Assembly: GCF_900302485.1 (NCBI RefSeq)
Contig: NZ_OMOI01000001.1
Span: forward strand, 930,001-994,000
Direction of reading: 5' to 3'
Origin: Aliiroseovarius pelagivivens
GTDB lineage: Bacteria; Pseudomonadota; Alphaproteobacteria; Rhodobacterales; Rhodobacteraceae
DNA length: 64,000 nucleotides
Each line of letters starts with the position of its first letter. The stretch's first letter is position 1. Positions 52,643 to 57,238 of this stretch are shown here, piece after piece. The translations under genes were made by a program, and so were the position numbers. The notes beneath the pieces are model-generated. The model made no database searches and was not told the origin of the DNA. It saw nothing but the letters and a program-made list of their open reading frames with translations.

Positions 52643-54028
52643 TCAAGCGGCAGTACGTCCAAACGTGACGACATTCCGGCCATCGGATTTGGCTTCATAA
52701 AGCGCTTGATCGGCGGCTTGTGTCAGTTCGCGTGCGCTGCGGGTATCATCCCGTAGATCACCCCAAACAGCGACGCCGACCGAGACCGTAACGTTAATCG
52801 GGAACGCCGTCTCGGTGATAGAAAACGGGTCATCTCCGATGGCACGTCGCAGTCGCTCTGCCATTGCCGCGACATCCTTGCGACTGACATCAGGCAGGGC
52901 GACCATAAACTCCTCACCACCAAATCGGGCTAAAAGATCAAACTCGCGCAGATTGTTGCGCAGGCGATCTGCGACTTCGATCAACACCTGATCACCGACG
53001 CCGTGACCGAACCGGTCATTGATGGATTTGAAGTGGTCCAGATCCAGGAATAGGATCGCATAGGGCTGGCCGTTGGTTTGGGCCTCTTGTTCCAAACGGT
53101 TCAGATAGCTTTGTGCGTAGCGGCGATTGTGAAGACCAGTCAGCGGATCCTGCGCTGCAAGCGACAGGTTATAGTCAAAGCGATTGCGCAGAGCGTCCAG
53201 TTCCAACTTGCGGGCTAGAAGGGATTTCAGACGCAAGGCAAGCTCTGTTGACTCGAAACCGCAATGCAGGATTGCATTGGCGCCCAGATCCAGTGCCATC
53301 GCACCGTCATGAGGGCGATCTTGATCGTGAATAACCACGATGATCGCGTTCCGGGTACGTATGCGTGAACGCAGCTCGCTGACCAGACGAAGCCCATCTG
53401 TTTCCTCGGCCAGAGATGCGCTGATGACAAAGGCATCAGGAACATTGCTAACCGCGTTCACATCGCAAAGGGCCTGTGATTTCGTCATGACATCCAAGCG
53501 GTGGGGAAGCTCGGTACCAAGCTTGCGGCGCCAGAGCAGCCCTTGTTCCGGCTCTGGTGCGATCAGGGCGATGTGTGCGGCGGGGACAAATTGCGCAGCG
53601 TCCTCGGCGCAGCCAAACTCAACCGAGATGTCGCGATGGCGCATGATCTCGTCATATGTGCCGCGCGTGCGGATCAAGTTCCGAACCATAGCTGATAGGG
53701 TGCTTTCCTCAACGCCGCTTGAATAGACATCGTCGGCCCCAGCATGCAAAGCGGCAATGCGGGCATTCTGGCTGTCCTTGTCGGCGAACAGAATGACCGG
53801 AATCGCACGCAGGTTTGGGTCGTTTTTCAGGGCAGAGCAGATGGTTAGGCTTTGGCCAGCTTTTCCACGTCCCAAAATGATCAGGTCAGGCTGAGCACGC
53901 CGCGCCGTTTCCAGCACAGCGTCAACTTGCTCGACCTGAATCACATCATATCCTGATACAGTCAGTTTGACCTTCAGGACGATGCGATTGGTCGCAAGAT
54001 CATCTGCAATCAGGATCCTTCCGCTCAT
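52643..54028 (-). CDS. PleD-like diguanylate cyclase with two degenerate receivers
   Basis: A 461-residue REC-REC-GGDEF protein with the layout of PleD. The output domain is intact: GGEEF at 370-374 and the inhibitory I-site R361-E-F-D364, so it should make c-di-GMP under product inhibition. The first receiver keeps the acidic pair (ADD, 8-10) but has Gly53 where PleD has its phosphoacceptor Asp53, and Ser104-Gly105 where Lys-Pro is expected. The second receiver has Ser203 at the matching position. Phosphorylation-driven activation is therefore unlikely. It is divergent from the DUF3572 gene. Confidence 0.9.
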   Translation of the reverse strand: MSGRILIADDLATNRIVLKVKLTVSGYDVIQVEQVDAVLETARRAQPDLIILGRGKAGQSLTICSALKNDPNLRAIPVILFADKDSQNARIAALHAGADDVYSSGVEESTLSAMVRNLIRTRGTYDEIMRHRDISVEFGCAEDAAQFVPAAHIALIAPEPEQGLLWRRKLGTELPHRLDVMTKSQALCDVNAVSNVPDAFVISASLAEETDGLRLVSELRSRIRTRNAIIVVIHDQDRPHDGAMALDLGANAILHCGFESTELALRLKSLLARKLELDALRNRFDYNLSLAAQDPLTGLHNRRYAQSYLNRLEQEAQTNGQPYAILFLDLDHFKSINDRFGHGVGDQVLIEVADRLRNNLREFDLLARFGGEEFMVALPDVSRKDVAAMAERLRRAIGDDPFSITETAFPINVTVSVGVAVWGDLRDDTRSARELTQAADQALYEAKSDGRNVVTFGRTAA

Positions 54029-55138: not shown

Positions 55139-55212
55139 ATCGAAGCGCGCCTTTTCTAATTGTTAAGAAATGAGCCTTAGAACATTACCGTGAAATGACG
55201 CGTGTGATGATG

Positions 55213-55800
55213 ATGCATGGCTTGATACTATGGATATTCGAATCCTTTGTGCGCCTGACCTATGGGGAACAGGTCTGGGAAAAGGTGCTTGCGGATCTGG
55301 ACCTTCACCTGCAGTCCGTCGAGCCGATGTTTCACTATGATGATCAGATCTGTCTATCGATTCTAAGGCAGCTGTCGATCGAGCAAAGCCGCGACAGAAA
55401 TTCTCTGCTGGAAGATTTCGGAACGTTTCTTGTTACTGATCCGCGTGTCGAGCGGGTGCGGCGATTACTTCGGTTCGGAGGGGTCGATTTTACCGAGTTC
55501 TTACATTCGCTTGAAGATCTCAAGGGGCGCGCGCGCCTTGCCGTGCCAGATTTGACCTTACCCGATGTGCAGGTGGATGAAACCCAGCCGCATTGCTTTG
55601 AAATTACATGCGAAAACAGTCCTAGCGGTGCGCCTTACGTCCTGTTGGGCGTTCTGCGTGCGTTGGCAGATGACTACGGTTCGCTGGTGTTTCTCGAAGT
55701 GTTTTCCGAAAGTCGAGACGGTGTCATTATCTCGGCGCGCCTGTTGGATCGTCAACATGCTCAGGGGCGGGAATTTCTTTGGGCAACAGATGGTGCATAA
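55213..55800 (+). CDS. H-NOX-fold protein lacking the heme ligands
   Basis: A 195-residue protein with the H-NOX (heme NO/O2-binding) fold. It begins MHGLIL, aligns along the helices GEQVWEKVL and LLEDFGTFLV, and has FTEFLHSLEDLKGRARLAVP. Canonical H-NOX proteins read NLDNLHARV...P here, and the proximal heme His is replaced by Lys104, eight residues before the conserved Pro112. The heme-propionate motif YxSxR is also gone (C133-E-N-S-P137). It is therefore unlikely to bind heme in the normal way. Three in-frame ATGs upstream (from 55195) are possible starts; 55213 restores the family N-terminus. The stop overlaps the cyclase start (TAATG). Confidence 0.8.
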   Translation: MHGLILWIFESFVRLTYGEQVWEKVLADLDLHLQSVEPMFHYDDQICLSILRQLSIEQSRDRNSLLEDFGTFLVTDPRVERVRRLLRFGGVDFTEFLHSLEDLKGRARLAVPDLTLPDVQVDETQPHCFEITCENSPSGAPYVLLGVLRALADDYGSLVFLEVFSESRDGVIISARLLDRQHAQGREFLWATDGA

Positions 55801-56813
55801 TGAATATCGAACGCCCGATACCCTTCACCTGTGGTGCGCTGGATCATGTGTTACCCTTGCACATGATGATCGACAGCTCTGGGTTAGTGCAACATGCGGG
55901 TCCGACCATCCAAAAGGTGTTCGCCAATCGTAGGTTGGTTGGGCGCAACGTATTTGGCTTGCTTGAGCTAAAGCGGCCCCGAAACATCAAACGCATAGAA
56001 GATGTAGCTAAGTTTGATGCCAAGCGGGTGCAGTTGAAAATTCGTGATGAATACGGAACACCGGTGACTGGGGCGGTGGCGCTGATGCCTTATATGGACA
56101 GCGTACTGTTAAACCTCTCCTTCGGGTATTCCATTGCAGAAGCGGTGGCGCGTTATGAATTGACCGGGTCTGACTTTGCGCCGACCGACCTTACGGTCGA
56201 AATGCTGTATCTGGTCGAAGCCAAATCTGCCGCAATGGATATTGCCAGTCAGTTGGCGCACCGCCTTCAGGATGAAAAAGAAGTTGCCCAAACTCAGGCG
56301 CTGACAGATGGGTTGACGGGATTGGCCAATAGACGCGCCCTTGAGGCGCGGCTAGAGCGGCAGTTTCGTCGCAACGTACCTTTCTCGCTGATGCATCTGG
56401 ATCTGGATTTTTTCAAGTCGGTCAATGACACGCATGGGCATGCCGCAGGGGACGCGGTACTCGAGGTTGTGGCTCAGATCCTGCGAGAAGAAACACGCAA
56501 AGAGGATCTAGTGGCGCGTGTTGGTGGGGACGAATTCGTGATTGTTCTGGACAATCAGGTCTTCCCCATGCGGCTTGAAAAAATAGCTGCTCGCCTGATC
56601 AAGCGGATTGAAGCCCCGATCAAGTACCGGGGTATGGACTGCCGGATTTCAGCCAGCATCGGTGTTGTGTCATCCTCCAATTATCTGAAGCCGGATCAAA
56701 CTTTGATGTCCGAAGAAGCGGATAAAGCGCTTTATGCCTCGAAACACGCAGGGCGCGCAGCGTATACGATTGCAGGGTATTCTGGAAAAACTGGTAATTC
56801 TCTGACTGGTTGA
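55800..56813 (+). CDS. HNOBA-GGDEF diguanylate cyclase partner of the H-NOX-like protein
   Basis: A 337-residue protein. Residues about 10-125 (CGALDHVLPLHMMIDSSGLVQHAGPTI, then VFGLLELKRP and ALMPYMDSVLLNLSF) match the HNOBA (H-NOX-associated PAS-like) domain of soluble guanylate cyclases. A helical linker (about 133-170) leads to a GGDEF domain with GGDEF at 242-246 and the I-site R233-K-E-D236, both intact, so c-di-GMP synthesis is expected. It overlaps the H-NOX-like gene by one base. The pair mirrors the architecture of NO-regulated cyclases, with the upstream partner lacking heme residues. Confidence 0.88.
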   Translation: MNIERPIPFTCGALDHVLPLHMMIDSSGLVQHAGPTIQKVFANRRLVGRNVFGLLELKRPRNIKRIEDVAKFDAKRVQLKIRDEYGTPVTGAVALMPYMDSVLLNLSFGYSIAEAVARYELTGSDFAPTDLTVEMLYLVEAKSAAMDIASQLAHRLQDEKEVAQTQALTDGLTGLANRRALEARLERQFRRNVPFSLMHLDLDFFKSVNDTHGHAAGDAVLEVVAQILREETRKEDLVARVGGDEFVIVLDNQVFPMRLEKIAARLIKRIEAPIKYRGMDCRISASIGVVSSSNYLKPDQTLMSEEADKALYASKHAGRAAYTIAGYSGKTGNSLTG

Positions 56814-56869
56814 CAGGTTCTTGTATTGGCCTTAGCACAACCTTGATCCCCATTATGTCAGAGGCCCCT

Positions 56870-57238
56870 ATGCCATTGTTATGTCGCGCGATTACCTTTG
56901 CTTCAGGCGTTGCGGTCGGGGTGTTGTCTATGTCGAATACGGGGATGGCCCAGACTGGGGAAATTGTTCGATCTATCCTAGGGCGCCAATTAAACAGCAC
57001 GCAGGTATCTCAATCCTATATTCACGCCGATGGAACGCTTGAAGGTGTGTTCAACGGCATTTCTTTTGCAGGAACATGGACTTTGGAGGACGGCAAGTAT
57101 TGCCGCAAGTTTACACGTGGTCTGACAGGTGCGCCGATTTGCATGACGGTCACTGCTGAGTATGCGTCTGATGGTGAAATCCGCGTGGTGGTATTCGAAG
57201 GCCCGGGCGGTCGCGCAAAGTTTCAGGTGGGGCACTAA
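56870..57238 (+). CDS. Small exported protein, unknown
   Basis: A 122-residue product with a signal peptide ending near GMAQT. The mature part contains SILGRQLNSTQVSQSYIHADGTLEGVFNGISFAGTWTLEDGKYCRKF, a beta-rich repeat-like stretch, and two Cys that could pair (YCRKF, PICMTV). A WxxxxGxYCR pattern of this kind occurs in small periplasmic proteins of Rhodobacterales. Function unknown. ATG 56870 with GAGG five bases upstream is favoured over ATG 56855. It lies 56 bases after the cyclase gene. Confidence 0.65.
   Translation: MPLLCRAITFASGVAVGVLSMSNTGMAQTGEIVRSILGRQLNSTQVSQSYIHADGTLEGVFNGISFAGTWTLEDGKYCRKFTRGLTGAPICMTVTAEYASDGEIRVVVFEGPGGRAKFQVGH

Follow-up and report, generated by a model that had tools for sequence, protein, structure and literature searches.

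An H-NOX protein lacking the axial heme histidine and its HNOBA-GGDEF partner in Aliiroseovarius pelagivivens: a candidate heme-independent subunit of a c-di-GMP synthase

The stretch of Aliiroseovarius pelagivivens DNA analysed here (the window: 64,000 nucleotides of contig NZ_OMOI01000001.1, positions 930,001 to 994,000) carries a gene for an H-NOX protein that overlaps the gene of a diguanylate cyclase, an enzyme with cyclic di-GMP (c-di-GMP) as its product. H-NOX proteins are usually annotated as heme-based sensors of nitric oxide (NO); the one encoded in the window has lost the heme-binding axial histidine and belongs to a type that mostly lacks it. In the following list, and throughout, "group" denotes the 254 distinct sampled domains with a sequence block of the RRLLR type and "canonical" the 31 domains without it.

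55213..55800, plus strand: H-NOX gene (HNOB, PF07700), Group 5 type, 195 aa, stop TAA
55216..55218, plus strand: codon of His2, a group signature (242/254 group domains vs 0/31 canonical)
55453..55482, plus strand: RVRRLLRFGG block, residues 81-90, a group signature just N-terminal of the residue-104 helix
55522..55524, plus strand: Lys104 codon (AAG), in the place of the proximal heme His; aligns with His105 of Alr2278
55609..55623, plus strand: remnant of the YxSxR motif, Cys133, Asn135 and Pro137 (C-N-P), by alignment
55798..55802, plus strand: TAATG stop/start overlap of 1 base between the H-NOX and cyclase genes
55800..56813, plus strand: HNOBA-GGDEF diguanylate cyclase gene, 337 aa
55824..56120, plus strand: HNOBA region, residues 9-107 (Pfam 9-84), with PAS-like alpha/beta order in the model
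56181..56303, plus strand: long helix, residues 128-168, a likely coiled coil in the model
56298..56756, plus strand: GGDEF domain, with RxxD at 56496-56507 and the GGDEF motif at 56523-56537

The H-NOX protein matches PF07700 with 71 bits (cut-off 25.5), and no NCBIfam profile matches it at E 0.01. A second in-frame ATG lies at 55195; the start at 55213 is favoured because the methionine of MHGLI is the start in most of the nearest proteins. An earlier reading made from the letters alone (the sequence-only reading) had proposed an H-NOX fold that has lost its axial histidine and its YxSxR propionate motif. Both points are borne out: Lys104 aligns with His105 of Nostoc Alr2278, the propionate site reads C-N-P, and the absence of both hallmarks of a canonical heme H-NOX is confirmed as a genuine observation. 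With canonical proteins such as Alr2278 and human soluble guanylate cyclase beta1 it shares the fold and the conserved pocket proline, but it differs in these two sites, in having HNOBA and cyclase on a separate gene, and in the replacement of guanylate cyclase by GGDEF. A sequencing error or an odd single mutation as the source of Lys104 is ruled out by the seven nearest named Aliiroseovarius genes, all of which encode lysine there, as AAG or AAA. Among eight Lys-bearing H-NOX genes the median ratio of nonsynonymous to synonymous substitution (dN/dS) is 0.051 (21/28 pairs with defined dS), and among the cyclase genes of the same loci 0.069 (19/28 pairs), values that are rough because the mean dS is above 1 and near saturation. 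The H-NOX gene is under purifying selection.

The partner scores 27.3 bits for HNOBA (PF07701) and 138.5 bits for GGDEF, both above the cut-offs, with an HNOBA match that spans just 76 of 216 profile positions. The PAS reading of this region rests on strand order and not on a fold match of the HNOBA part alone; in a fold search with the cyclase model, GGDEF matches fill the list and barely test that part, and helix 128-168 aligns with the helix preceding the GGDEF domain of PleD and others. The GGDEF active site and RxxD are intact and invariant across 38 aligned sequences, the window's included. The proposal of an HNOBA-GGDEF partner with an intact site thus stands, as does the claim that its gene begins inside the upstream stop codon. 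The same reading had seen in the pair the layout of soluble guanylate cyclase, which is defined by an H-NOX, an HNOBA and a guanylate cyclase domain in one chain. Here the H-NOX and HNOBA parts are indeed present, but they are split over two genes and the output is GGDEF.

An H-NOX protein without the histidine beside a GGDEF gene is a kind already in print. Kumar and Spiro (2017) reported that in Paracoccus denitrificans such a gene overlaps one for a GGDEF protein (Pden_3719/Pden_3720), and that the Rhodobacter sphaeroides H-NOX is without the axial histidine as well (PMC5588039). In P. denitrificans the hnoX mutant underproduces and the dgcAB mutant overproduces biofilm, from which the authors suggested that H-NOX inhibits DgcA; biofilm formation by the hnoX mutant continues to be stimulated by NirS-derived NO, and NO is kept as the trigger in a study where c-di-GMP itself could not be measured (PMC5588039). 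Lee-Lopez and Yukl (2022) placed such proteins in Group 5, a cluster seeded by the P. denitrificans H-NOX, with the proximal histidine in <10% and no conserved cysteine, and posed the mode of sensing as a question (PMC8738867). The window's H-NOX appears to fit Group 5 by its HNOB match, its histidine loss and its GGDEF neighbour, an assignment by published traits. Like the P. denitrificans protein, it has no axial histidine and an overlapping or adjoining GGDEF gene, and P. denitrificans also has a second, receiver-domain cyclase; the window differs in carrying lysine where the usual Group 5 residue is proline. The published statement on cysteine holds only strictly, given Cys133 in 166/254 group domains.

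The distribution of the pair was followed in Rhodobacteraceae, where PF07700 is present in 296/394 genomes (393 genera) and the window protein as query finds a match in 286/394, a few of them via canonical H-NOX. The sample of loci is non-random and weighted to close relatives and high HNOB scores; it combines the 80 top-ranking named loci with those behind the strongest matches to the HNOB profile and to the window protein, and with further rows from these two match lists. It gave 287 distinct domains, with identical domains merged and near-copies possibly counted twice, and two fragments of one interrupted gene were dropped to leave the 254 and the 31. These fragments belong to locus L227 (genome G271), where the H-NOX gene is broken by an in-frame stop and HNOBA-GGDEF still lies downstream.

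Residue 104 of the 254 group domains is Pro in 181, His in 17, Arg in 16, Lys in 9, Ser in 8, Gln in 7, Ala in 6, Asn in 3, Asp, Gly and Thr in 2 each, and Glu in 1. The axial histidine is therefore absent from 237/254, with 11 different residues in its place, and present in 31/31 canonical domains; its loss is the rule within the sampled group. Over 121 rows, made up of the 120 top-ranking proteins (that of the window among them) and a second copy of the query, the residue is arginine in 54, proline in 24, lysine in 12, alanine in 10, serine in 9, histidine in 6 and another in 6. The number of homologues with lysine at this site, proposed as a check by the sequence-only reading, is thus 9/254, the window's copy being one of both figures, and 12/121 rows. 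Even within Aliiroseovarius two loci (L043 and L116) have histidine, and other members have Lys, Arg, Pro or Ser.

The partner does not vary in this way. Partners were sought on the same strand, with starts at most 1.5 kb past the H-NOX frame, by means of an HNOBA profile derived from the window protein. An HNOBA-GGDEF frame with its motif was found downstream of 247/247 group domains with more than 900 nt of downstream sequence vs 3/31 canonical ones; a previous count on a smaller set, under a stricter definition, yielded 191/191 vs 4/33. A constant partner and a variable heme ligand are most simply read as marks of a regulatory subunit that has become independent of heme.

Other positions are held more firmly: in 195 rows of the group, 38 reach an identity of 95% or more, the pocket proline is retained in 182/182 His-less rows, and His2, also found in 120/120 of the proteins nearest the H-NOX of Dinoroseobacter shibae (a second sample), maps to the propionate edge of the pocket. 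In simulations of Nostoc and human H-NOX, residue 2 and YxSxR hydrogen-bond the carboxylates of heme-replacing drugs (PMC6225106). YxSxR is intact in 29/31 canonical domains, the two exceptions having one Ser and one Arg replaced; the YxSxR counts come from earlier alignments because its third column was shifted for canonical proteins in the last one. A coupled loss of the axial histidine and the YxSxR arginine appears in neither sample, the arginine being kept in 1/13 His-bearing vs 10/181 His-less domains and, in the second sample, in 8/25 vs 29/95. Loss of the counterpart of Nostoc R116 was dropped as a mark of the group, as canonical proteins of Rhodobacteraceae also lack it.

The history of the site can be approached through D. 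shibae DFL 12, whose single H-NOX match is of the group type, has HNOBA-GGDEF downstream, keeps the histidine and reads C-W-R at YxSxR. This protein (Dshi_2815) is reported, in citing sources, to sense NO and, in its NO-bound form, to inhibit Dgc1 (PMC7232146, PMC8846402). It shares with the window protein the signature blocks, the HNOBA-GGDEF partner and the cysteine at the tyrosine of YxSxR, but it has its own axial histidine and YxSxR arginine along with the reported NO binding, and the window protein has neither residue. A rooted tree was built from 116 rows (all non-Pro rows then gathered, every third Pro row and 14 canonical), with the residue-104 column removed beforehand and without L225, L226 and L234, which are long or odd, and the loci added last. 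Its first group branches bear histidine (L232, L228 and L230), followed by the pair of L107, with Gly, and D. shibae; Fitch parsimony, the only method used for the ancestral state, places histidine at the group root, on a backbone of mixed support with several low values (99, 0, 86, 28, 97). As D. shibae near the base of the group retains it, the axial histidine is probably ancestral to the group. It also occurs, retained or regained, in scattered later branches, Aliiroseovarius included, and residue 104 thus seems able to change freely. Among the 120 proteins of the second sample, histidine is found in 25, and tyrosine at the first YxSxR place in 10 (5 with the histidine and 5 without). The D. 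shibae mechanism should not be transferred to the His-less relatives.

With a probability of roughly 60%, we interpret the window's H-NOX as a heme-independent, probably inhibitory subunit of a two-subunit c-di-GMP synthase formed with its HNOBA-GGDEF partner. The interpretation builds on the sequence and predicted fold, the lost histidine, the pairing throughout the sample and purifying selection; HNOBA binding, inhibition and the absence of heme are what we infer from these. The Group 5-type H-NOX, its axial ligand gone, would most likely be heme-free in function. It would dock on the HNOBA/PAS-like end of the adjacent cyclase and control its output via the coiled coil, with inhibition as the most likely effect. 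Inhibition is the likelier sign because it agrees with the D. shibae reports and also with the mutants of P. denitrificans, in which NO acts even without hnoX. The signalling step of a heme H-NOX is the release of the proximal histidine from the iron, and a protein without that histidine would either remain close to the released state at all times or respond to a different input. Extended to the whole family, the idea would be that a D. shibae-type NO sensor lost its heme ligand, possibly repeatedly, stayed bound to the cyclase, and either gained an input via the former propionate site (His2, often Cys133) or became fixed in the His-released inhibitory state; this history is put forward tentatively, at somewhat less than even odds.

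Heme could still be bound, via Lys104, His2, His98, Cys133 or no protein ligand, and serve an unusual sensing of NO or another gas. The claim of the sequence-only reading that NO sensing through heme seems impossible was too strong: the D. shibae protein, a reported heme NO sensor, also lacks the tyrosine and serine of YxSxR, so loss of the motif alone is no bar to heme, and lysine could in principle act as a ligand. The near-universal His2, at a residue that contacts the carboxylates of heme-replacing drugs (PMC6225106), the invariant pocket proline and the YxSxR arginine in 29/95 of the His-less proteins nearest D. shibae likewise suit a heme pocket. Yet residue 2 sits at the propionate edge, off the iron axis, the arginine is retained independently of the histidine, and residue 104 is mostly proline, which is unable to ligate. 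No other histidine stands out as a new axial ligand, given the place of His2 and the occurrence of His98 in only 180/254 group domains. Retained heme is accordingly judged unlikely. The emptied pocket might instead take another ligand sensed by the pair, such as a lipid, an iron-free tetrapyrrole or a metal ion held by His2 with Cys133, which we consider rather doubtful. Decay of the H-NOX gene after loss of the sensor, leaving no role, would agree with the lost cofactor ligand and with the stop-interrupted gene of L227, but it is rejected as highly improbable on dN/dS (0.051), on the 38 conserved positions and on the breadth of matches across the family. A locked NO-activated conformation was also considered and set aside, since the model lies only marginally closer to activated states, a difference too small to establish it. 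The H103G mutant (PDB 2kil) is reported to mimic the activated state.

The present analysis adds to the published picture the HNOBA-GGDEF pairing throughout the sample, the residue-104 counts, the basal, His-bearing D. shibae protein and the His2 signature. A literature search, with most subscription papers outside its reach, found no report that solves the mechanism of His-less Group 5 sensing, and none of the basal position of D. shibae, of the His2 signature or of HNOBA pairing across all members; GGDEF pairing may be shown in figure 6 of the 2022 review (PMC8738867), which was not viewable. The P. denitrificans results have been explained in print by NO-bound H-NOX (PMC5588039, PMC8738867). 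If most Group 5 proteins are heme-free, this explanation would fail for most members of Rhodobacteraceae, and one of the few diguanylate cyclases in these bacteria would take another input. Rhodobacteraceae are a large and common family of marine bacteria, and the D. shibae protein, with its histidine, forms a natural pair for comparison with relatives that lack it.

At E 0.001 the genome holds three GGDEF loci. In addition to the HNOBA-GGDEF gene, a receiver-GGDEF protein of the PleD type is encoded at 52643-54028 on the minus strand, 1.2 kb upstream of the H-NOX gene. The third locus, L248 (G000:C1:2470696-2471157), carries RGRF instead of GGDEF and, by eye, an EAL-type tail, and it is probably a phosphodiesterase only. 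This leaves two apparently intact cyclases, both inside one 4.2-kb stretch (52643-54028, minus strand, and 55800-56813, plus strand); the number of GGDEF proteins in P. denitrificans is also two (PMC5588039). Among 78 named loci, some of them cut short, a PleD-type-like protein (>60 bits) is found in 43, DUF3572 in 47 and a HAD gene in 52. Elsewhere in the genome lies a FIST-domain gene (L245, G000:C1:474124-474708); NosP, an NO sensor, belongs to the FIST family (PMC8738867), and the gene may encode a separate heme NO sensor. The stop of the cyclase gene is overlapped by the earliest possible start of a small open reading frame (56810-57238), which has no Pfam match; similar frames occur in 10/78 named loci.
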